A DNA stretch of 47,032 nt from contig VGGK01000018.1 of the NCBI GenBank assembly GCA_016868665.1, positions 1-47,032 of the forward strand. The letters are read 5' to 3'. Each line of letters opens with the position of its first letter. Position 1 is the first letter of the stretch. Source of the DNA: Chlorobiota bacterium (GTDB lineage: Bacteria; Bacteroidota; Chlorobiia; Chlorobiales; Chlorobiaceae). Below are positions 28,176 through 41,068 of the stretch, in pieces. The notes under the pieces were generated by a model. That model did no database searches, was not told the DNA's origin, and worked only from the letters and a program-made list of their open reading frames with translations. The translations under genes were made by a program, and so were the position numbers.

Positions 28176-28287
28176 CTTCTGTGCCGTCCAGAGCGGAATT
28201 CGATTGCGGAAATGCCCGGTCATCCTGATTTCACTGGATTTGCAGGTAAAAAAATATGATCTTTCGGGAGCAAATTTTTACACCTGT

Positions 28288-29898
28288 ATGAAAAAACATC
28301 TTCTTCTCGGAGCCGAGGCTGTAGCCGCCGGAGCTCTCGATGCCGGAATATCCGGCGTTTACGCATATCCCGGAACCCCCTCGACCGAAATCACCGAATT
28401 CATCCAGAAAAGCCGTGAAACCGCTGAACGCGGCATTCACGCATCATGGTCGGCAAACGAAAAAACCGCCTATGAAGCCGCCCTCGGCATGTCCTATGCC
28501 GGAAAACGCGCGCTTTCGGCAATGAAGCACGTCGGGTTGAACGTCGCCGCCGACGCATTCGTCAACTCAGCCATAACCGGAGTCAACGGAGGACTGGTGC
28601 TTGCCGTGGCCGACGACCCGTCGATGCACTCCTCGCAGAACGAACAGGACAGCCGTTTTTACGGACGGTTCGCCATGGTGCCGGTCATCGAGCCTGCTTC
28701 GCAGCAGGAACTCTATGACGCGACAGTACGGGCATTCGATCTTTCGGAATCGATGCAGCTTCCGGTACTGCTCAGGCTCACCACCCGTATTTCCCACTCC
28801 CGAGCGGGAGTAACACGCGCCGCGGCACGCAGCGAAAACGCCCTGCATGCGGAGTATGCCCCGGAACGTTATGTGCTGATGCCGCACAATGCGCGCAGGC
28901 AGTACGAGAGGCTCCTCGGCAAACAGGAAATGCTGGAACAGCTCTCCGGTTCCTCCCCGCTGAACCGGATGATCCCCGGAACAGGCCCGCTTGGCGTGCT
29001 TGCCTGCTGCATCGCCTTCAACTATGCAATGGAAGCGAAAAAAACCTTCGGCCTCGATATTTCCATACTCAAAATCGGCCAGTATCCGCTTCCCCGGCAT
29101 CTGGTCGAAGATCTCTTCGCCCGATGCGAAACCGTGCTGGTCGCCGAAGAGGGATACCCGATATACGAAGAACTGCTCCGAGGATGGTTCGACGACCGGA
29201 AAATCACCGGACGCATGGACGGCGCGCTGCCCCGTGCCGGCGAACTGACGACAAGCCTGCTGGCCGAAGCGCTCGGGGTAAAACGCCCGGCTCCGGCGGC
29301 GATTCCAGGCATCGTTGCGAACCGCCCGCCCGAGCTCTGCCGGGGATGCGGCCACCGCGATCTCTTCGAAGCGCTGAACCGGGTCATGGAGGGTTTCGAA
29401 AACCGCCACGTCTTTTCCGATATCGGCTGCTACACCCTCGGAGCCCTGCCCCCATACAGCGCAATTCACACCTGCGTCGATATGGGCGCGGCAATCACCA
29501 TGGCAAAAGGCGCCGCGGATGCCGGCCTTCGCCCTGCAGTCTGCGTCATCGGCGACTCCACCTTCACCCATTCCGGCATGACCGGCCTGCTCGACGCCGT
29601 CAACGAACAAACGCCGCTCACGGTCATCATCGCCGACAACGACACCACCGCCATGACCGGAGGTCAGGCCTCGGCGGCTACGGGATCGAAACTCCGCTCC
29701 ATCTGTCGCGGCCTCGGCGTCGAAGAAGCACGCATCAGCACGATCGTTCCCCTGAAACAGAATCTGGAGGAGAACATGGCAACGCTCAGGGAAGAAATTG
29801 CCTTTCCCGGCGTTTCGGTGGTGCTGGCGGTCAGGGAATGCATAGAAACCGCTGCCCGGAAAAAACGAAGATCCGGAAGCAAACCAGCCAACCAGTAA
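28288..29898 (+). CDS. iorA: Indolepyruvate:ferredoxin oxidoreductase alpha subunit
   Basis: Thiamine-diphosphate subunit that interconverts aryl-2-oxoacids and arylacetyl-CoA using ferredoxin. From the ATG at 28288 (MKKHLLLGAEAVAAG) it has 536 residues; the frame is open 28 codons upstream without homologous sequence. The pyrimidine-binding domain has GVYAYPGTPSTEI near 23-35, the TPP domain starts at CRGCGHRD (351-358), and the metal-binding region runs from GDST (422) to ND (451-452). The usual C-terminal domain with two [4Fe-4S] clusters is absent: the chain ends at SKPANQ right after the TPP domain. It is followed by iorB after 5 bases. Confidence 0.93.
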   Translation: MKKHLLLGAEAVAAGALDAGISGVYAYPGTPSTEITEFIQKSRETAERGIHASWSANEKTAYEAALGMSYAGKRALSAMKHVGLNVAADAFVNSAITGVNGGLVLAVADDPSMHSSQNEQDSRFYGRFAMVPVIEPASQQELYDATVRAFDLSESMQLPVLLRLTTRISHSRAGVTRAAARSENALHAEYAPERYVLMPHNARRQYERLLGKQEMLEQLSGSSPLNRMIPGTGPLGVLACCIAFNYAMEAKKTFGLDISILKIGQYPLPRHLVEDLFARCETVLVAEEGYPIYEELLRGWFDDRKITGRMDGALPRAGELTTSLLAEALGVKRPAPAAIPGIVANRPPELCRGCGHRDLFEALNRVMEGFENRHVFSDIGCYTLGALPPYSAIHTCVDMGAAITMAKGAADAGLRPAVCVIGDSTFTHSGMTGLLDAVNEQTPLTVIIADNDTTAMTGGQASAATGSKLRSICRGLGVEEARISTIVPLKQNLEENMATLREEIAFPGVSVVLAVRECIETAARKKRRSGSKPANQ

Positions 29899-29903
29899 CG
29901 ACC

Positions 29904-30500
29904 ATGCAATACGATATTATTGTATCCGGCGTCGGAGGACAGGGCATCCTGAGCATCGCCGCGGTCATCGACCTCGCCGCGCTGCATTGCGGCCTCCATA
30001 TTCACCAGGCCGAAGTACACGGCATGAGCCAGCGCGGGGGCGCCGTACAGTCGCACCTGCGCATTTCGGACGCGGAAATCCACTCCGGCCTTATTACCGA
30101 AGGAACCGCCGACATCATTCTTTCGGTAGAACCGCTCGAAGCACTTCGCTACCTGCACTTCCTCTCCCCTGAAGGACGCATCGTCACGGCAACCGAAACC
30201 GTCGTCAATATGGCCGGTTATCCGCCCTTCGAACTGATCGAAGCCGAACTTCGCCGTACCGGCAGCCCTGTGCTCGTCGATGCCGCCGCTCTGGCCCGCG
30301 AAGCGGGAAGCGCAAAAACCTCGAACATGGTGATGCTCGGCGCCGCAACGCCCTTCATCGCCCTCGATCAGGACATACTGGAAGCCGGCATCATCGAACT
30401 CTTCGAAACAAAGGGAGAGAAAATCGTCGCCATGAACATCGACGCATTCAGAAAAGGGGTCGCATTCTCACAACAGTCAATTCAACAGACAGTCCTATGA
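29904..30500 (+). CDS. iorB: Indolepyruvate:ferredoxin oxidoreductase beta subunit
   Basis: The gamma-type domain subunit of 2-oxoacid:ferredoxin oxidoreductase, 198 residues. It starts [18 protein letters not shown] and contains [21 protein letters not shown], the classic signature of the pyruvate/ketoisovalerate oxidoreductase gamma domain. With IorA it forms the active heterodimer or tetramer in the cytoplasm. It sits 5 bases after iorA and its stop overlaps the ligase start (ATGA at 30497), so coupling is strong. No iron-sulfur motif is visible, so neither subunit supplies clusters. Confidence 0.95.
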
Positions 30501-31798
30501 TCTGGAACGCGCATTACGAATGCATGGAGCGCGAGGAGCTCCGGAAACTGCAGGGCGAACGACTGCAGGCCATGGTAGAAAAAGTCTATTTCAATGTTCC
30601 CTTTTATCGCCTGAAACTGCAGGAAAAGGGCATCGAACCCGGCGACATCCGGAGCATCGACGACCTGCAGAAGCTGCCATTCACCACCAAACAGGATCTG
30701 CGCGACACCTACCCCTTCGGCCTCTTCGCCGTGCCGCTGCAGCATGTCGTCCGGCTGCACGCATCGAGCGGCACCACAGGGAAATCCACGGTCGTCGGCT
30801 ACACCCATAACGACATCCTCATGTGGAGCGAAGTGGTCGCCCGGTCGCTCACCATGGCGGGAGTCACGAAATCCGATATCGTCCAGGTTGCATACGGCTA
30901 CGGCCTCTTCACCGGCGGCCTCGGCCTGCACTACGGAGCCGAAAAAGTGGGAGCTTCGGTCATCCCCATCTCCGGCGGCAACACCAGAAAGCAGCTCCAG
31001 CTCATGGAGGATTTCGGCTCTACGGCAATCGCCTGCACGCCCTCCTACGCGGCCTACCTCGGCGAAGCTCTTGCGGAAGAAAAAATCGATCGGAAAAACA
31101 TAAAACTCAAAGCCGGCATCTTCGGCGCCGAACCGTGGACCGAAGAGATGCGCACCCAGATCGAGCGGCTGCTGGGACTGAAAGCCTACGACATCTACGG
31201 CCTGAGCGAAGTCATAGGACCCGGCGTCTCGATGGAATGTTCCTGCCAGAACGGCATGCACATCTTCGAAGACCACTTCATACCCGAAATCATCGATCCC
31301 GAAACCGGCGATGTACTACCCTACGGAGAGCTCGGAGAGCTGGTCTTCACGACGGTTACCAAAGAGGCCATGCCGCTCGTCCGCTACCGCACGCGCGACC
31401 TGACCCGCCTGCACGCCGAATCCTGCCAGTGCGGCAGGACGCTGGTACGCATGGAAAAATGCGTAGGACGCTCCGACGACATGCTCATCATCAGGGGAGT
31501 CAACGTCTTCCCGTCGCAGATCGAATCGGTGCTGCTTGAAATGAGCGAAACCAAACCGCACTACCTGCTCGTCGTCGACCGCGAAAACAACCTCGACACC
31601 ATCGAAATTCAGGTGGAGGTCGAAGAACAGTTCTTCAGCGACGAAGTCAGGGAACTCGAAAATCTCCGCCGGCGCATTCATGCCAACATCTCAAGCCTGC
31701 TCGGCCTCAGCGCTTCCATCAGGCTTGTCGAGCCCGGCACGATCGAGCGCAGCATGGGCAAGGCCCAGCGGGTAGTCGATAAACGAAAACTCAACTAA
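30497..31798 (+). CDS. Phenylacetate-CoA ligase-like protein
   Basis: A 433-residue AMP-forming acyl-CoA ligase of the PaaK type. Nucleotide-binding [19 protein letters not shown] is near residue 90; [19 protein letters not shown] is the A5-like motif; YRTRDLTR and [20 protein letters not shown] mark the hinge and C-terminal domain. It should activate arylacetates such as phenylacetate or indoleacetate to CoA thioesters. It overlaps iorB by four bases and precedes an ACT protein, an arrangement known from archaeal and clostridial ior clusters. Together they link arylacetates, arylacetyl-CoA and arylpyruvates. Confidence 0.93.
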
Positions 31799-31816
31799 TA
31801 CCGAAAGGAGGATGGC

Positions 31817-32245
31817 ATGATCATCAAACAATTATCGGTGTTTCTCGAAAACAGGACCGGCAGGCTGACCGAACTGACAGGAATCCTTGCCGAAAACGAC
31901 ATCAACATCTCGGCATTCAGCATCGCCGACACGGCGGACTACGGCATCCTGCGCATGATCGTCGGGCGACCCGAAATCGCCGCCGACGTGCTGCGCAAAA
32001 ACGGCTTTACCGTCAGAATCACCGATGTGGTTGGTATGATCGTGCCCCACAGGCCCGGTGGGCTGCACAAAGCACTGCAGATCATTTCCGAAAACGGCAT
32101 CGCCATCGACTACATGTACGCCTTCGCCTCGGGCGACTGCAAAGCCACGGTGGTCATCCGGGCCGACTCGCTGGATCGCATCATCGATGTGCTGCAGGAG
32201 CACAAGCTCGAACTGCTGCAGGCAGGCGATGTTTACCAGCTGTGA
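31817..32245 (+). CDS. Tandem ACT-domain protein
   Basis: A 142-residue protein with two ACT domains (KQLSVFLENRTGRLTELTGILAENDINI at the start, and PGGLHKALQIISENGIAIDYMYAF from about residue 75). ACT domains bind amino acids and regulate enzymes of their metabolism. An AGGAGG ribosome-binding site precedes the ATG, 18 bases after the ligase gene. The same ACT protein commonly accompanies PaaK-type ligases and IorAB, so it probably senses aromatic amino acids or adjusts that pathway. Its target is not known. Confidence 0.9.
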   Translation: MIIKQLSVFLENRTGRLTELTGILAENDINISAFSIADTADYGILRMIVGRPEIAADVLRKNGFTVRITDVVGMIVPHRPGGLHKALQIISENGIAIDYMYAFASGDCKATVVIRADSLDRIIDVLQEHKLELLQAGDVYQL

Positions 32246-32334
32246 AGTTCCCGTTGTGAAGAAAAGGAGAGCAGGAATTACAGGAAGATAAAGGACGCAA
32301 GGGAGCAAAAGGGAAAGGAAGAAAATAACCAGCA

Positions 32335-33534
32335 ATGCCACGATTTTCGCAATCAGTATCAGCGCTTCGCTCCTCGGCAATCAGGGAGCTTATGAGCCTC
32401 GCTTCGAGGCCCGACATCATCTCCTTCGCCGGTGGCATGCCGGGCAACGATCTCTTCCCGGTTGAAGAGGTCGAGGAGCTGTTCCGGAACCTCGATCCGA
32501 AAACCAAGCAGGCGGCATTCCAGTACGGCCCGACCCCCGGCCTGCCATCGCTGCTCGAATCGCTCTCCGGCTACCTCGAACGAAAAGGGCTGCCCGTACA
32601 GAAGAACCGGCTCATGATCACCACAGGCTCCCAGCAGGCGCTCAGCATCCTCGCCCGGGCATTCATCGACCCCGGCGACCGGGTGCTCAGCGAGTACCCC
32701 TGCTTCATCGGAGCAATAGCGGCCTTCAAGGCCTGTGGAGCCGACATCGTCTCCATTCCGGTCGATGAGGAAGGCATCGAAATCGGCATGCTGCAACAGG
32801 AAGTCCTGAAGCCCGATCCCGCAAAATTACTCTACCTCACGCCCTACTTCCACAACCCGGCCGGAATGCTCTATACCACCCGTCGCAAACACCGGCTCAT
32901 CGAGGTCATGCAGGGACGCGACATCCCCATCATCGAAGACGACGCCTACGGCGACCTCTGGTTCAGCGAAGAAGATCGCGAACGGCTGCAGCCCCTCAAA
33001 TCGATCGACCCCGAAGGCATCAACCTCTGCTATACCGGATCGTTCTCCAAAATCCTCGGCCCCGGCCTCCGTCTCGGCTGGCTGCTCGCTCCCGAAGCCA
33101 TCCACGAAAAATGCGAACTGATCAAGCAGTCCGCCGACGCCTGCTCCCCGAGCTTCACCCAGGTCATCGCCGACGCCTTCATCCGCTCGGGCAGAATCGA
33201 CAGCTACATCGCCTCCGTACGCAACGAGTACCGCCGTCGGGCAGCCTGCATGACCGCAGCGCTCCGAAGCCGGCTGCCGGACTATGTGCGATGGAACGAA
33301 CCGAAAGGAGGATTCTACATCTGGCTCACCCTTCCCGAAGGAGCGGACGCCACGGAAATTCTCAAACACGCCATCGAAGGCGGAGCCGTCTTCGTCGCCG
33401 GCAGCACCTTCGACCCCGAAGGCCGACGCAACAACGCCATCAGGCTCTCATACTGCAACAACACTCCGGAAGAGATCGAGCGGGGCATCCCGATAGTGGC
33501 AAGGGCGATCAGGGAAGTGTGCGGGGAAGGATGA
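32335..33534 (+). CDS. PLP-dependent aminotransferase (aromatic or 2-aminoadipate type)
   Basis: A 399-residue fold-type I aminotransferase of the class I/II MocR-LysN-like group. Substrate-binding FAGGMPGNDLFP is near residue 30, YLTPYFHNPAG holds the PLP-interacting Asn, and GSFSKILGPGLRLGWL contains the Schiff-base Lys and phosphate-binding Arg. It ends with the usual helix. Its position at the end of the ior-ligase-ACT cluster suggests that it exchanges arylpyruvates for phenylalanine, tyrosine or tryptophan with 2-oxoglutarate as partner. Substrate is inferred from context only. The upstream 89-base gap has purine-rich sequence but no near-perfect ribosome-binding site. Confidence 0.88.
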   Translation: MPRFSQSVSALRSSAIRELMSLASRPDIISFAGGMPGNDLFPVEEVEELFRNLDPKTKQAAFQYGPTPGLPSLLESLSGYLERKGLPVQKNRLMITTGSQQALSILARAFIDPGDRVLSEYPCFIGAIAAFKACGADIVSIPVDEEGIEIGMLQQEVLKPDPAKLLYLTPYFHNPAGMLYTTRRKHRLIEVMQGRDIPIIEDDAYGDLWFSEEDRERLQPLKSIDPEGINLCYTGSFSKILGPGLRLGWLLAPEAIHEKCELIKQSADACSPSFTQVIADAFIRSGRIDSYIASVRNEYRRRAACMTAALRSRLPDYVRWNEPKGGFYIWLTLPEGADATEILKHAIEGGAVFVAGSTFDPEGRRNNAIRLSYCNNTPEEIERGIPIVARAIREVCGEG

Positions 33535-33633: not shown

Positions 33634-33712
33634 TCCTCTTCCATCCCCTGTCTCCTGACTCCCGTTTCCTCTCTCCTGTCTCCTGTCTACTCTCTCCTCT
33701 CTCCCGACTCCT
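33634..33712. repeat. CT-rich degenerate tandem repeat
   Basis: About 80 bases composed of variants of CTCCTGTCTCC (period about 7, e.g. TCTCCTGTCTCCTGTC), reaching the stop codon of the sigma-54 regulator gene on the minus strand. Low-complexity sequence between convergent genes; no coding potential. Confidence 0.7.
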
Positions 33713-35810
33713 AAGAATACCGCTTCCTCATCCCCAGCTTGTCGATCCTTGAATACAGGGTCTTCGGATGCATCTCCAGCAGTTCGGCGGCTCCGCCCTG
33801 GCCGCTTACCCTTCCTCCAGACCGGTCGAGGGCATCGAGAATCAGCTCGCGTTCGAGCATGAGCATCTCCTCCGAAAAATCATGCATGGTTTTTCTTTTT
33901 ACCCCGCATCTGTCGCAACCGGCGGTACCTTCGGGCGAAAGCAGCGAGGTGATATCGAGCGACGGACCATCGGAAACAATCACCGCCTGTTCGACCAGAT
34001 GCGCGAGTTCGCGGATGTTGCCTTTCCAGGCGCGCCCCTGAAGGCGCAGGAGATCGTTTTCGCGGAAAGGGAGCTGCGGCCTGCCGAATTCGCGGGCGAA
34101 TTTCGAGGCGAAGTGCGCCGCAAGCAGGGGAATGTCCTCCCCTCGTTCGCGCAACGGGGGAATGGCAAGAGGAAACACATTGAGCCGGAAATAGAGATCT
34201 TCGCGGAACCGGCCCTCGGCAACCTCACGTTCAAGGTCGCGGTTCGTTGCGGCAATGACACGGACATCGACGGGAATAACCCTGCTCCCGCCGATCCTTT
34301 CAAGTTCCCGCTCCTGAAGCACCCTGAGCAGCTTGGCCTGCAGTTCGATCGGCAGTTCGCCGATCTCGTCAAGAAAGATCGTACCGCCGGCGGCAAGCTC
34401 GAACTTTCCAATCCTGCGCTCCGTCGCACCGGTGAAGCTCCCTTTTTCGTGCCCGAACAGTTCCGACTCGATGAGAGCCGCAGGCAGCGCGGCGCAGTTC
34501 ACCTTCACCATCATCTTCTCCCGGCGTGGCGAGAGGTTGTGAATCGCCCGGGCAAACAGCTCCTTGCCGGTACCGGTCTCCCCCTGAATCAAGACGGTAG
34601 CATCAGTGGGGGCCACCTGGCTTACCCTGCGAAGAACACCGGCAAGCGGCGCGCTCCGCCCGATAATCTCCTCGAAATCGTGCGATCCCTTGATCTCCTC
34701 GATCAGCCATGTCCGCTCGCCCTCAAGCCTGCGGCGCAGGTCGTCGATCTCCTCGTAGGCAAGATAGTTCTGCAATGCAAGCGACAGCTGCGGCACCACG
34801 AGGCTTACGGTCTGCAGGTCGTTCTCGTCAAAGGAACGGGAGGTGCTGGAAATGATCAGACCTGCCCGGCTTCCGGGGGAGTCCCAGAGCGCAACGCTTA
34901 TGACCGAGCAGACGCCGAGTTTTTCGCGAACCAGACTCACAAGACGGTACTGTCGGGCAAGCCTGTCGAAATCATCGCCGGCATAACAGCCCGGATTGGT
35001 GATCAGAGCAAAGCTCTCTTTTGCTATCTCGTGGAAATCAGATACTTCGAGCTGATCGTAGGAGAGCACAGGGGAGAATCCGCCTCCCGGCTCCTTCATA
35101 AAATTATCGAAAACCCTGTAATCCCCGTCGCTCCCCATGACCCTGATACCCAGAAAGCTGCAAGGTACAAGCCGGTCGATCTGCTCGCAGACCGCAAGCA
35201 TCATCCTGCTCCGGTCCCTGATGGTGAGCAGCGCGTTGTTCACGGCAAGCTGCATGGCGGTCTGCGCCTCGCGCTGACGCAACTCCTCATATGCCAGCGC
35301 GTTGCTGACTGCAACGGCAATCGGAGAGGAGAGCGTCGAAAGCAGCTCTTTTTCATCTTCCGACCAGCTTTTTTCATGCTTCGAAACGAAGTTAAGAAAG
35401 CCGATCACCTTGCCTCCCGAACGGAGCGGAGAAAGCACAACCTGCCGCATGCCAAGTTCATAGAGCATTTTCGGAACGGGAAAATCAGCGGGGTAGCGAT
35501 CGACTTCTCCCTCTATGGTCATGACCGATACCGTCGTATCGCCGAGATGGGGTTCTATCCAGGAACCTGCAACCGGGCGCTTTTTGCGCTGAATAGTATC
35601 GGGAAATTCGAAACGCAGCATCTCGAAAAACACGTTGATGTAGCGCCTGTCGCGGTCGAAGGTGATAATGACGGCCGAATCGAACTCGAAGACAAGACGC
35701 AGCTTGTCGGTAACCGTGCGGAACAGCTCCTGCGGATCGCGTATCGAACCGACGGCATCGCTGATATAGCACATCAGCGAACTGGCTTCATGAATGGATT
35801 CGCCCTGCAT
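33711..35810 (-). CDS. Sigma-54-dependent activator with GAF domains
   Basis: A 699-residue FhlA/NtrC-type enhancer-binding protein. Residues ~15-175 and ~190-350 look like two GAF sensor domains. The AAA+ domain has Walker A GETGTGKE at 410-417, the sigma-54-contact loop GSFTGA at 457-462 (the usual form is GAFTGA) and Walker B TIFLDE near 477-482. A Fis-type helix-turn-helix occupies the C-terminal ~40 residues. There is no phosphorylatable receiver domain, so the signal probably binds the GAF domains directly. It is divergent from the tolC-led efflux operon, which has a sigma-54 promoter. It ends at a CT-rich repeat. Confidence 0.94.
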
Positions 35811-35851
35811 GTGGCAAACAATGATTTCCTTAAAATTAAGAACACACTAAA

Positions 35852-35863
35852 CAGAATATTCTG
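35852..35863. promoter_or_regulatory. Candidate activator site (palindrome)
   Basis: CAGAATATTCTG is a perfect 12-base palindrome ~100 bases upstream of the -24 box, a typical distance for a sigma-54 enhancer. A second inverted repeat, GCAAC-TGAAC-GTTGC, lies at 35891-35905. Confidence 0.45.
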
Positions 35864-35961
35864 ATTTTCTCGGAAATACAACAACAGCAGGCAACTGAAC
35901 GTTGCGTCCGAACATGCTTAAAAACAGGCATTACCGGATATCAGGGAGGAACACCTGTCTC

Positions 35962-35976
35962 TGGCACAGTAATTGC
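35962..35976 (+). promoter_or_regulatory. Sigma-54 promoter of efflux operon
   Basis: TGGCAC-AGTAA-TTGC matches the -24/-12 consensus TGGCAC-N5-TTGC exactly, with an A next. The start of transcription is expected near 35987, before the tolC-like gene. A sigma-54 activator gene lies divergent and adjacent. Confidence 0.88.
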
Positions 35977-36034
35977 ATAAATTTAACGACAGACAGTCCG
36001 GAACATGCCGGACATCATTCTCATATCCGAACCG

Positions 36035-37342
36035 ATGAAGAAAACGCTGCTACGAAAAGCCGGAACCGCTGCCGCGCTGCTGCTCGTCACCCTGCCTTTG
36101 CAAGGAACAGCCGCTCCGCTGACGCTGGAGGAAACAATCCGGCTGGTACAGGAAAATAATCCGTCGCTGAAAGCCGCTGCTGAAGAGGTTACGGCTGCCG
36201 ACGCGCGCATCAGGAAAAGCAGAAGCGCATATTACCCGCAGATCACCGCCAGCGCAGGATATACGTATCTCGATCCGGTCTCCGAAATGGGTTTCAGCGG
36301 AAGCGAGCCGATACAGTTCATGCCGAACGACAACTACGAAGCGAAAGTCACCGCCAGAGCGACCCTGCTCGATTTCGGCAAACGGGGCAAAACTGTCGAT
36401 ATCGCACGCTCCGGCAGGAACGCAGCTGCTCATTCGTTCGACATCGCAGAGCGCGATATCTCCTATCAGACTGTAGAGCTTTTCTACGGTATCCTTTTCC
36501 TTCGCGAAAGCATCCGGGTTCAGGATAAAGAGATAACCGCACTTCAGAAAGCTCTCGACCACACATCAAAACGCTATCAGGCCGGAACCGCAACCCGATT
36601 CGACGTGCTTTCGACCGACGTGCGCATTCAGGCCGCCCGGTCGAAAAAGCTCTCGCTGCAGCACCAGCTCCGCCGTCACGAACTCACCCTGCACCGTCTG
36701 ACGGGGCTGGCTGTCAACGACCCGCTCGAGCTGAAAGGATCGTTCGACGTACGTCCTTCGTTCTCCGACGAAGCTTCGCTTGTCGCCGCAGCACTGCAGA
36801 GGCGCTCCGAATCGAAGCTTGCCGCCGAACAGGAACAAACGGCCAGGGCGAACCGCTCCATCGCCATGAAGCAGGGGCTCCCGGTGGTCAGCGCAAGCGC
36901 TTCGTGGGGCATAGCCAACGGCTACCAGCCGGATATCGACGAAATCCGCGAAAACGTCGCCGCCGGCATCCACGTAGAACTGCCGATCTTCACGGGATTC
37001 CGCACCTCCGCCGAACGCCAGGAATCCTCGGCTTTGCTGCGCGCAGCGGCACAGCGCCGGATCGACGCCGAACAGCGGATTAAAACAGACGTCGAAGAGA
37101 CCCTGCACGCATTCGAAACATCTCGCGAGAACATCCTCACCACCCAGTCGCAGCTGCAGCAGGCAAGACTTGCCGCCGAACATGCCCGTGCCCGGTACGA
37201 AAACGGCGTGGCAACGACACTCGACCTGCTCGATACCGAAGCAGCGCTTGCTCAGGCAGAACTGGCAAGACTTCAGGCGGCATACGACTACCTTATGAAC
37301 AATTATGCCCTCAAACGGGCAACCGGGGAGACCTTCTGGTAA
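36035..37342 (+). CDS. TolC-family outer-membrane efflux protein
   Basis: Outer-membrane channel of a tripartite exporter. From the ATG at 36035 it has 435 residues with a signal peptide (MKKTLLRKAGTAAALLLVTL, cut after a TAA-type site) and two OEP repeats. The hairpin helices recur as LTLEETIRLVQENNPSLKAAAEEV and a matching segment near residue 235, and a conserved YEAKVTARATLLDFGKRGK strand is present. The ATG at 36005 gives an alternative 10-residue extension. It is the first gene of the sigma-54 operon, with 5 bases to the usp gene. Confidence 0.92.
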   Translation: MKKTLLRKAGTAAALLLVTLPLQGTAAPLTLEETIRLVQENNPSLKAAAEEVTAADARIRKSRSAYYPQITASAGYTYLDPVSEMGFSGSEPIQFMPNDNYEAKVTARATLLDFGKRGKTVDIARSGRNAAAHSFDIAERDISYQTVELFYGILFLRESIRVQDKEITALQKALDHTSKRYQAGTATRFDVLSTDVRIQAARSKKLSLQHQLRRHELTLHRLTGLAVNDPLELKGSFDVRPSFSDEASLVAAALQRRSESKLAAEQEQTARANRSIAMKQGLPVVSASASWGIANGYQPDIDEIRENVAAGIHVELPIFTGFRTSAERQESSALLRAAAQRRIDAEQRIKTDVEETLHAFETSRENILTTQSQLQQARLAAEHARARYENGVATTLDLLDTEAALAQAELARLQAAYDYLMNNYALKRATGETFW

Positions 37343-37347
37343 ACACA

Positions 37348-37800
37348 ATGGACAATCAACTTAAAAGCATTCTCTGCGCAGTGGACTTTTCCGGGCTCTC
37401 CGACCACGTAGTCGCCTATGCGGCCGATCTGCAGCATGGCGGAGCGGAACTGACGCTCCTGTACGTCGAACCTGAAGAAAGCAACAGCGACTGCCTGCTG
37501 AAAAAGCATCTGCACGCTTTTTCGCGCTACAGCGACATCCTGGCCCGCCGCGGAGGCAGCGCGCTGTTCACGGTCCGGTATGGCGACCCGGCAACCGCGA
37601 TTCTTTCCTATGCCGAGCAGCATCATGCGGACCTGCTCGTGCTCGGATCGCACGGAAGCATGGCATTCACAAGACTGCTCATGGGCAGCACGGCCGAAAC
37701 CGTCATGCGAAGAGCATCCTGCGCGGTCGTCATCTATAAATCGCCCGAACCGGATTCCGACGCACAGTCGCGAATGGAACGGATAACGCAGGTTTCATAG
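37348..37800 (+). CDS. Universal stress protein (UspA-like)
   Basis: A 150-residue cytoplasmic UspA-fold protein. The ATP-binding motif G-x2-G-x9-G-S is visible as GSHGSMAFTRLLMGS, followed by the typical strand SCAVVIYK. The N-terminus ILCAVDFSGLSDHVVAYAADL is standard. It sits between the outer-membrane and inner-membrane efflux genes, 5 bases after the tolC-like gene and 40 bases before the emrA-like gene, so it is transcribed with them. A function in the pump is unproved. Confidence 0.92.
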   Translation: MDNQLKSILCAVDFSGLSDHVVAYAADLQHGGAELTLLYVEPEESNSDCLLKKHLHAFSRYSDILARRGGSALFTVRYGDPATAILSYAEQHHADLLVLGSHGSMAFTRLLMGSTAETVMRRASCAVVIYKSPEPDSDAQSRMERITQVS

Positions 37801-37840
37801 CGGATCAACCTCGAACGACAAGAAGATAACAATCAGCATA

Positions 37841-38833
37841 ATGGCAGAACAAGAAATCGGTAACAGCGCAACTGCGACAGCAAAAGAATCTCCGAAAGCA
37901 TCGAATCCGCTGCGGCTCGTCATAGCTGCGGTCGTCGTCCTCGGCGCGCTGTTCTGGGGCGGCAGGACGCTTTACCACTCATTCCTGTACGAAGAGACCG
38001 ACAACGCCCAGATCGAAGGCGATATCTATCCGGTGATCTCCCGGGTGCCTGGTCGGGTACAACAGGTACTTGTTACCGATAACCAGCAGGCGGCAAAAGG
38101 GGACACCCTTGTTCTTCTGGATCCTGCAGATTACGAAGTAAAAAAAGCCATTGCCGCAGCGGCGCTTGAAAACGCGAAAGCTTCGGTTGCAGCCGCAAGG
38201 GAAGCCGCTCTTGCGGCCGCAGCAAGCGGAAACCGGCTCAATGCCGACCTCCGGCGGAGCGAAAACCTCCGGCGCCAGGATGTCATATCGCCATCCGAAT
38301 TCGATGCGATACGGGCAGCGGCAACATCGGCCTCGGCTCAGTACGCCGCCGCCGAAAGTCAGCGGAAAGCGGCCGAAGCGCAGGTCGGTATCCGGCAGGC
38401 GGAACTTGAAAACGCAGAGTTGCAGCTCTCCTATACCGCAATAACAGCCCCGGCGGCCGGCCATGTATCGAAAAAGAACGTACAGCCCGGCCAGTACGTC
38501 GCCCCCGGCCAGCAGCTCATCGCGCTCGTCGGCAGCAGCGACCTCTGGGTGGTGGCGAATTTCAAGGAGACGCAGCTCGAAAACATCCGGCCCGGCCAGC
38601 CGGTCACCATCAGGGTTGACGCATACCCCGGCAAGGAGTTCGAGGGCAGAATCGAATCCATTTCTGCGGGAACCGGAGCCAGATTCTCGCTGCTGCCTCC
38701 CGATAATGCCAGCGGCAACTTCGTCAAGGTAGCGCAGCGCGTACCGGTCAAAATCGTCTTCAGCGAAAAACCCGGCAGAGAATACAAACTCGCAGCAGGG
38801 ATGAACGTTATCGTCGAAGTCAGGGTAAAATGA
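37841..38833 (+). CDS. HlyD/EmrA-type membrane fusion protein
   Basis: Periplasmic adaptor of a tripartite efflux pump, 330 residues. One N-terminal membrane helix (LVIAAVVVLGALFWGG, near 30) is followed by the lipoyl/barrel halves (YEETDNAQIEGDIYPVISRVPGRV and AGHVSKKNVQPGQYVAPGQQL), a long coiled coil of alanine-rich heptads near 100-190, and the beta-barrel part with GARFSLLPPDNASGNFVKVAQRVPV, the EmrA signature. It should link the DHA2 transporter to the TolC-like channel. The emrB-like gene overlaps its stop by ATGA. Confidence 0.94.
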   Translation: MAEQEIGNSATATAKESPKASNPLRLVIAAVVVLGALFWGGRTLYHSFLYEETDNAQIEGDIYPVISRVPGRVQQVLVTDNQQAAKGDTLVLLDPADYEVKKAIAAAALENAKASVAAAREAALAAAASGNRLNADLRRSENLRRQDVISPSEFDAIRAAATSASAQYAAAESQRKAAEAQVGIRQAELENAELQLSYTAITAPAAGHVSKKNVQPGQYVAPGQQLIALVGSSDLWVVANFKETQLENIRPGQPVTIRVDAYPGKEFEGRIESISAGTGARFSLLPPDNASGNFVKVAQRVPVKIVFSEKPGREYKLAAGMNVIVEVRVK

Positions 38834-40428
38834 GCGGAACGGCAACGGCGGCCTCGCTGCAGGCAGGCGGACACATCTACGAAACCGGAGCAAGGAGGGT
38901 TATCATCACCCTCACGGTTATCGTTTCGGCAATGCTCGAGCTGATCGACACCACCATCGTCAACGTGGCCATCACCCAGATCAGCGGCAACCTCGGCGCA
39001 AGCATCGAAGACGTCGCCTGGGTGGTCACCAGCTACGCCATCGCCAACGTCATCGTCATTCCGCTCTCCGGATTCCTCGGCAACCTGCTTGGACGACGCA
39101 CCTACTACATCGGCTCCATCCTGCTCTTCACCGTGGCGTCCCTCCTATGCGGCCTTGCCACCGACATCTGGGCGCTGGTCTTCTTCCGCTTTCTGCAGGG
39201 CATCGGCGGCGGCGCGCTCCTGCCGACCTCGCAGGCGATTCTCTACGAAACCTATCCCCCCGAAGACCGGGGCAAAGCCACCGGCATCTTCTCCATGGGC
39301 CTCGTGCTCGGACCGACCATCGGCCCGCTGCTCGGAGGCTATCTTGTTGACTATTTAAGCTGGGAATGGTGCTTCTTCGTGAACATCCCCATCGGTCTGC
39401 TTGCCGCATGGTCTTCATTCGCCTTCATCCGCGAACCCAAAACCGTGCACAAGGTCACCAGAATCGACTGGACCGGCATCGGCCTTCTTGCCGTCGGTAT
39501 CGGATCGCTGCAGTTCATCCTCGAACGAGGCGAATCCAGGGACTGGTTCGAAACCTCCTACATCACCTGGTTCACCCTCATCGCCGTCGTCTCGCTGCTG
39601 CTCTTCGTCTGGTGGGAACTGCGGACAGAAGAGCCCGCAGTCGATCTCAGGGTGCTGGCCCGGAGCCACAACCTCGCCATCGCAGCCGTACTCACGTTCA
39701 TCGTCGGCTACGGCCTCTACGGATCGCTCTTTGTCTTTCCGGTCTTCGTGCAGCACCTGCTCGGCTTTACGGCCGTCCTGACAGGACTCGTACTCTTTCC
39801 CAGTGCCATGCTTACCGGGGTCATCTCCATGCCGCTCGGCATAGCGATGCAGCGGGGCGCCTCGCCGAAAATACTCATGGGCATCGGTATGGGCGCATTC
39901 GCGCTCTTCTGCTGGGAACTTGGCCAGCAGACCATGCAGTCGGGGGCTTCCAACTTCTTCTGGGTGCTGCTGCTGCGAGGCCTTGCGCTCGGCTTCATCT
40001 TCATTCCGGTCACCCTGCTTGCTGTCTCGGGCCTTCACGGAAAAGATATCGGCCAGGCAACAGGTCTCAATAACATGGTGCGTCAGCTCGGCGGCTCCTT
40101 CGGCATCGCGCTCACCAACACCTATATAGCCAAACGCGTGGCCGCACACCGCACGGAACTGCTTGGCCACCTGTCGCCTTACGACCCTGCTGCCGTGGAA
40201 CGCCTTGAAGGCATCCGTCAGGCTGCCGGAACGCGAATGCTCTCGCCGGTCGAAGCAGAACAAGCCTCTTTGAGAGCTCTGGAAGGCACCGTTACGGCAC
40301 AGAGCTACCATCTCGCCTATATGGACGCTTTCATGCTGATAGCCGCGCTCTTCGCCCTCTCGATGCCGCTGCTGTTCTTCATCAAGCTGAAAAAAGGAGA
40401 GAAGGCCGACCTCTCGTCGGCTCACTGA
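38830..40428 (+). CDS. DHA2-family (EmrB-type) drug exporter
   Basis: A 532-residue inner-membrane major facilitator with 14 membrane segments, exporting hydrophobic compounds by proton antiport. The DHA2 motif LEL-IDTTIVNVAITQI is near residue 37, motif A-like GNLLGRRTYYIG is at ~80 and motif C-like GLVLGPTIGPLLGGYL at ~155. With the preceding adaptor and outer-membrane protein it makes a full EmrAB-TolC-like pump. The ATG overlaps the adaptor stop by four bases, and the stop overlaps msrB convergently by 7 bases. Confidence 0.94.
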   Translation: MSGTATAASLQAGGHIYETGARRVIITLTVIVSAMLELIDTTIVNVAITQISGNLGASIEDVAWVVTSYAIANVIVIPLSGFLGNLLGRRTYYIGSILLFTVASLLCGLATDIWALVFFRFLQGIGGGALLPTSQAILYETYPPEDRGKATGIFSMGLVLGPTIGPLLGGYLVDYLSWEWCFFVNIPIGLLAAWSSFAFIREPKTVHKVTRIDWTGIGLLAVGIGSLQFILERGESRDWFETSYITWFTLIAVVSLLLFVWWELRTEEPAVDLRVLARSHNLAIAAVLTFIVGYGLYGSLFVFPVFVQHLLGFTAVLTGLVLFPSAMLTGVISMPLGIAMQRGASPKILMGIGMGAFALFCWELGQQTMQSGASNFFWVLLLRGLALGFIFIPVTLLAVSGLHGKDIGQATGLNNMVRQLGGSFGIALTNTYIAKRVAAHRTELLGHLSPYDPAAVERLEGIRQAAGTRMLSPVEAEQASLRALEGTVTAQSYHLAYMDAFMLIAALFALSMPLLFFIKLKKGEKADLSSAH

Positions 40429-40970
40429 CCCGCTGCCGTATCCGGCTCGAAATCGAGCACTATCGAATTCATGCAGAACCGCTTGCCGGTCGGGGGCGAT
40501 CCGTCGTCGAACACGTGTCCGAGATGCGCGCCGCATCGTCCGCAGAGCACTTCGGTACGCGACATACCAAACGCCATATCGGCACGGTACTCAACGCTGG
40601 CCGGACGCACGGTCTCGAAAAAGCTCGGCCAGCCGCAGGTACTGGCGAACTTCGCATCCGAACGGAACAGTGCATTGCCGCATGCTGCGCAGTAATAAGT
40701 GCCGATACCCTCGAAATCCCATAGTTTCCCGGTGAATGCCCGCTCGGTACCTGCCTTGCGCGCCACCTCGTATACCTCCGGAGAGAGTACCTTTTTCCAG
40801 ACGGAATCGGGCAGATCGAGCTTCGTGGTATCGGTCCGGGAGCAGTAGGGATTCGAGACGCTATGCTCGTTCATGGCTTCAGATGATGAGAATTTCGACG
40901 GCGGCTGCCCGGCGCTGCAGGCAAATAGCACCACGGTCGTTATAAACAGGAGAATCGTCGTTCGATGCAT
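40422..40970 (-). CDS. msrB: Peptide methionine-R-sulfoxide reductase, lipoprotein form
   Basis: Reduces methionine-R-sulfoxide in oxidised proteins. From the ATG at 40970 the product has 182 residues and begins with a lipoprotein signal (LLFITTVVLFAC, then SAG), so it should be membrane-anchored outside the cytoplasm. The MsrB domain has two zinc-binding CxxC pairs (CAAC and CGRC), GWPSFFE, and the catalytic Cys in RFCMNS. The frame upstream of 40970 is open but unlike the family. Its end overlaps the emrB-like gene by 7 bases. The reductant must be delivered across the membrane. Confidence 0.94.
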   Translation of the reverse strand: MHRTTILLFITTVVLFACSAGQPPSKFSSSEAMNEHSVSNPYCSRTDTTKLDLPDSVWKKVLSPEVYEVARKAGTERAFTGKLWDFEGIGTYYCAACGNALFRSDAKFASTCGWPSFFETVRPASVEYRADMAFGMSRTEVLCGRCGAHLGHVFDDGSPPTGKRFCMNSIVLDFEPDTAAGQ

Positions 40971-41068
40971 TAGAGTCAATGATATTTTCAACCGTGAACG
41001 CTCCAGACGCTCTCGATGTTCCGTCATTACGCATGCAAAATTTTTCAATTTCCATTACAGGAGGATCT

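Follow-up and report, generated by a model that had tools for sequence, protein, structure and literature searches.

One-component repressors, EmrR and TetR-type proteins among them, usually control efflux operons, and the E. coli pump EmrAB-TolC has the repressor EmrR as its regulator. The locus studied here, in a 47-kb window (the whole stretch of DNA analyzed, contig C18 of the 2.38-Mb genome G000 from the green sulfur bacteria), raises the question of how an EmrAB-TolC-like operon that lies divergent from a gene for a sigma-54 activator is regulated. A preliminary description, made from the window alone, had proposed that a GAF-containing activator controls this operon through sigma-54. 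According to our analysis, the comparative evidence (promoter, paired sites, and synteny) strongly supports this proposal, and control by the divergent tandem-GAF activator acting via paired palindromes is the best explanation, with a probability of roughly 0.88.

The pump operon and its divergent activator

The features of the locus are collected in Table 1. The operon has the order tolC-like (OEP), usp, emrA-like, and emrB-like, the genes being separated by 5, 40, and −4 bases. The tripartite operon first described is present, but it has four genes, the one encoding a universal stress protein (Usp) having been missed. For the channel gene, ATG 36035, which begins the signal peptide MKKTLLRKAG..., is deemed the more likely start, since many orthologue alignments start near residue 11 to 12. 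A gene encoding methionine sulfoxide reductase B (SelR; window 40422 to 41048) is convergent with the operon end and adjoins it in many relatives too.

Table 1. Features of the locus, with their positions in the window and what each assignment rests on
Feature	Position	Strand	Basis
Sigma-54 enhancer-binding activator gene (699 aa)	33711..35810	-	Domain searches, motif alignment, predicted structure
Predicted activator site 1 (UAS1), TTCCTTAAAATTAAGAA, TTC-N11-GAA, 17 bp	35826..35842		Conserved palindrome
Additional conserved GAA half-site just 5' of UAS2, CAGAATATTCTG context	35854..35856		Profile columns 28-30
Predicted activator site 2 (UAS2), TTCTGATTTTCTCGGAA, TTC-N11-GAA, 17 bp	35859..35875		Centre exactly 33 bp from UAS1
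-24/-12 promoter, TGGCACAGTAATTGC (TGGCAC-AGTAA-TTGC)	35962..35976	+	Exact match and conservation
TolC/OEP outer-membrane channel gene	36005..37342	+	ORF and domain search
Universal stress protein (Usp) gene	37348..37800	+	Domain search; most family loci have Usp at the equivalent position
EmrA-like HlyD-family periplasmic adaptor gene	37841..38833	+	Domain and NCBIfam searches
EmrB-like DHA2-family MFS permease gene	38830..40428	+	Domain and NCBIfam searches; 4-bp start overlap with the adaptor gene

With E. coli EmrAB-TolC the system shares a TolC-type channel, a HlyD-type adaptor, and a DHA2-family MFS permease; it differs from it in that the channel and Usp are encoded inside the operon and in that its adaptor and permease fall short of the NCBI cut-offs specific for EmrA and EmrB. 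The permease meets the DHA2 MFS model TIGR00711 (419 bits versus a cut-off of 230), whereas the adaptor fails the EmrA subfamily model TIGR00998 (229.8 versus 390.8 bits), although this is still its top match, and the channel, in which the OEP domain is present, fails the TolC subfamily model TIGR01844 (178.9 versus 225 bits). The pump is therefore of the EmrAB-TolC-like tripartite type, as first suggested, while the label "multidrug" is to be read as a family name only.

In the activator, Pfam searches detected a GAF domain (residues 25 to 168), a Sigma54_activat domain (residues 382 to 548), and an HTH_8 domain, i.e., a Fis-type HTH (residues 651 to 692). The AAA+ domain matches PF00158 with 247 bits, and in an alignment of 21 members the Walker A (GETGTGKE) and Walker B (GGTIFLDE) motifs are conserved, while the GAFTGA-type loop, here GSFTGA, is invariant (21/21); GSFTGA is among the loop variants expected to keep activity (PMC4641369). 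A second GAF fold, at about residues 200 to 340, comes from the predicted structure only (residues 1 to 375, mean pLDDT 84.5), and a fold search matched the model to tandem-GAF structures of the phosphodiesterases PDE6 and PDE5 across both GAF domains. The two GAF-like domains of the preliminary description are thus borne out, the first by Pfam and the second by structure prediction, together with intact ATPase motifs. Thiol sensing through a CxxC at residues 630 to 633 was considered and rejected, since this motif is not conserved among the 21 aligned members. A crystal structure of one sensor domain already exists: in PDB 3k2n the first GAF domain was solved for an orthologue, a sigma-54 regulator from Chlorobium tepidum; it is 100% identical over 174 residues to the G014 activator and 64% identical to the model of the window activator. 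It covers a single domain, whereas the window activator is the full tandem-GAF protein. Our literature search found no paper on 3k2n and no published start-site maps or studies of the window activator.

The top NCBIfam models of the activator are FhlA, NorR, and NifA, but it lies far under their equivalog cut-offs (417 versus 830, 370 versus 476, and 366 versus 529, respectively). Common to these enhancer-binding proteins and the window activator are the GAF, AAA+, and Fis-type HTH domains, a sigma-54 promoter, and upstream palindromic sites; FhlA, NorR, and NifA, however, govern formate, NO, and nitrogen metabolism, while the predicted target here is an efflux operon. A single RpoN was identified in the genome search of G000, along with five strong sigma-54 activators.

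Promoter and paired upstream palindromes

A profile search with the N-terminal region of the activator retrieved relatives in Chlorobium, Chlorobaculum, and other Chlorobiaceae. We searched 81 Chlorobiaceae genomes for the activator and the adaptor and fetched the loci, 76 of which had enough upstream DNA for comparison. The activator divergent from OEP-Usp-EmrA-EmrB, in this order, is found in most of the fetched family loci; at L091, emrB is split across two frames (a frameshift or an assembly error).

As had been noted before, a perfect TGGCAC-N5-TTGC stands in front of the operon, with the GG of the -24 element and the GC of the -12 element at the fixed spacing, and it is the sole zero-mismatch match in the window. 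Across the whole genome there are nine perfect matches versus three for the reversed control, so a perfect match alone is modest to weak evidence, and conservation was used instead. An exact YGGCAY-N5-TTG was found 5' of the pump operon at 75 of the 76 loci, against 0.11 expected in shuffles, a count somewhat inflated by scoring the best match per region. At L019, the nearest relative, the -12 element reads TTGA, without the final C. Transcription is predicted to start near 35988. Further perfect sites in the genome lie 5' of nifH (L003) and of genes encoding a small heat-shock protein (L002) and a secreted, possibly fimbrial, protein (L007). In a 2025 survey of sigma-54 regulons, the Chlorobiia are named for nitrogen genes only.

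The palindromes previously placed some 60 to 110 bases upstream are real, but the conserved pair lies further 5', at 87 to 136 bp from the promoter (35826 to 35875) and 16 to 65 bp 5' of the activator start codon; the footprint then proposed (35840 to 35910) would cut through UAS1. The site centres are about 121 and 154 bp 5' of the predicted start, and activator sites 100 to 150 bp upstream are typical (PMC7057263). Two TTC-N11-GAA motifs exactly 33 bp apart are present at 65 of the 76 loci (0.0 expected in shuffles). When similar sequences are down-weighted, information peaks only at the two palindromes, the extra GAA, and the promoter. This GAA half-site sits in a AGAATATTCTGA palindrome (35853 to 35864), which may serve as a third element for binding or belong to the promoter of the activator gene itself.

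With up to one mismatch allowed, the pair pattern matches one locus in G000; among the 81 genomes it matches in 70, mostly at activator genes, compared with 1 of the 81 for the reversed control. Given this single occurrence, the activator probably serves the pump operon and perhaps itself too. A larger regulon was considered and rejected, since single-site matches across G000 are near background and the paired site occurs once in the genome.

Spacing and relatives of the activator

The distances from the UAS2 centre to the -24 element fall into clusters of 51 to 52, 61 to 63, 73 to 74, 81 to 85, and 92 to 97 bp, with steps close to one helical turn. The outlier is L108 (184 bp), where palindromes and promoter are about 89 bases further apart, out of helical phase with the other loci. 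On a parsimony tree we counted about eight large changes of distance, of which seven deviate from a multiple of 10.5 by no more than 2.5 bp and one, that of L108, by more. The corresponding binomial p is about 0.03, a rough value, and the phasing is less independent than it appears; the whole-turn changes are suggestive of looping, for which they would be expected, and helical phasing of the loops in sigma-54 activation has been described (PMC7408454). The clustered distances make these promoters a natural set in which looping and helical phasing can be tested.

A few Chlorobiaceae have paralogues of the activator, 57 to 65% identical to it, which lie beside a different system. The neighbors of the paralogues at L115, L119, and L120 include a HlyD-type adaptor and a double-ATPase ABC protein, which at L119 passes the RbbA equivalog cut-off (1082.9 versus 1050). 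Usp adjoins the paralogue at L119 to L122, standing alone beside it at L121 and L122 within the stretch fetched, and L115 and L120 have OEP. Sites of the form TTCTGA-N4-TCAGAA, or near it, are found at L120 to L122, at L231, and as one of the two sites at L119, while L115 keeps N5.

The contig search with the N-terminal profile returned Chlorobiales and one weak Bryobacterales match, its seed patterns being derived from the Chlorobiaceae alignment, and whole-genome searches outside the family with the tandem-GAF profile returned few Bacteroidota genomes. Six of these distant loci, five of them the top-scoring ones, are divergent from tripartite pumps: OEP-Usp-EmrA-EmrB at L226, L227, and L233 (one genus), OEP-HlyD-ABC at L224, and OEP-adaptor-RND at L228 and L235. 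Full-length identity to the window activator is 46% for L226, 45% for L224, and 40% for L228. The intergenic regions of L226, L227, and L233 mainly keep a palindrome pair, spaced by about 31 bp, and a TGGCACA with a relaxed -12 element. The other low-scoring matches inspected (L225, L229, L230, L234, and L236) had no pump neighbor.

Since paralogues and distant relatives are divergent from ABC, RND, and MFS tripartite pumps, these loci suggest a lineage of sigma-54 activators dedicated to efflux. We consider it somewhat more probable than not that every tandem-GAF activator of this lineage, in Chlorobiota and other Bacteroidota, has a TolC-type operon as its divergent neighbor, be the pump of the MFS, ABC, or RND class and often with Usp, and acts via paired palindromes whose distance to the promoter varies by whole helical turns. 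The half-site spacing, N5 for MFS and N4 for most of the paralogues linked to ABC pumps, may prevent cross-talk between paralogues of one cell. The conservation in nearly all sampled Chlorobiaceae and the recurrence beside three pump classes would rank the switch as a core stress response of the green sulfur bacteria.

Regulatory model, candidate signals, and alternatives

In the model that we propose, the divergent activator would bind the two palindromes, whose 33-bp separation places them on about one helix face, and would assemble upon a signal received via its GAF domains. A DNA loop would then bring it to the -24/-12 promoter, some 95 bp away, where it would use ATP to open the RNA polymerase-sigma-54 complex, so that tolC-usp-emrA-emrB could be transcribed and the pump could export a metabolite or a toxic compound. 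A pump under a sigma-54 switch should be tightly off until the signal arrives, since such a switch stays silent as long as its activator has not used ATP. The activator may also limit its own synthesis, given the position of the palindromes just 5' of its start codon. The mechanism itself is a known kind of switch, put here to a new and widely conserved role; as far as the literature searched shows, the novelty lies in the efflux-dedicated lineage, in how broadly it is distributed, and in the phased geometry. The earlier remark that efflux under sigma-54 is uncommon holds, with a precedent in EtpR of Aromatoleum aromaticum, a sigma-54 activator encoded beside an efflux cluster that it controls, as we predict for the window activator. 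Unlike the latter, EtpR has a XylR_N/V4R sensor, controls catabolic as well as solvent-efflux clusters, and belongs to another lineage (PMC4630880).

Regarding the signal, the activator may answer general envelope, redox, or energy stress instead of one pump substrate, an option that we regard as a serious candidate at somewhat less than even odds. It is consistent with the presence of Usp in most MFS operons and beside the paralogues of the ABC operons, and with the pairing of activator relatives with MFS, ABC, and RND pumps, whose substrates need not be common. However, GAF domains often bind small molecules, and no conserved cofactor motif was identified in the activator, nor is the CxxC conserved.

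An arylacetate-type module (IorA/IorB, PaaK, an ACT protein, and an aminotransferase; window 28204 to 33534) adjoins the activator. From this neighbor a small aromatic ligand had been guessed, and an arylacetate or related aromatic acid supplied by the iorAB-paaK-aminotransferase module and exported by the pump would be the corresponding signal, which we deem unlikely. A homologue of PaaK (phenylacetate-CoA ligase) lies less than 10 kb from the activator in 37 of the 66 genomes having PaaK, so the arylacetate neighborhood is real, and EtpR is a known aromatic-responsive sigma-54 activator of an efflux cluster (PMC4630880). Against an aromatic signal, EtpR senses by its XylR_N/V4R domains, not by GAF, and nine genomes (G006, G007, G008, G010, G031, G042, G049, G064, and G076) keep activator and operon without PaaK, among them the single-contig G008 and G010; the contig of G064 ends after OEP. 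The guess gained no support from this distribution, and an obligatory tie to the arylacetate module is rejected by it.

As to the control itself, the palindromes could belong to a different DNA-binding protein, or could form hairpins in the RNA of the activator leader, with the activator acting elsewhere. They are near the activator start codon, at a distance of 8 bp in loci of the Chlorobaculum type, and in RNA they could fold into a 6-bp stem with a 5-nt loop, yet this reading is very improbable: the exact 33-bp spacing and the clustering of distances to the promoter of the other gene fit DNA binding and not a leader hairpin, the mostly altered sites of the ABC-pump paralogues argue that the site changes along with the activator, and the pair is essentially confined to activator genes. 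Marginally less probable still is that a housekeeping promoter, for which the AT-rich intergenic region speaks, mainly drives the operon with a minor sigma-54 input, since no further strongly conserved block lies between palindromes and gene and the -24/-12 element is retained in nearly every relative.
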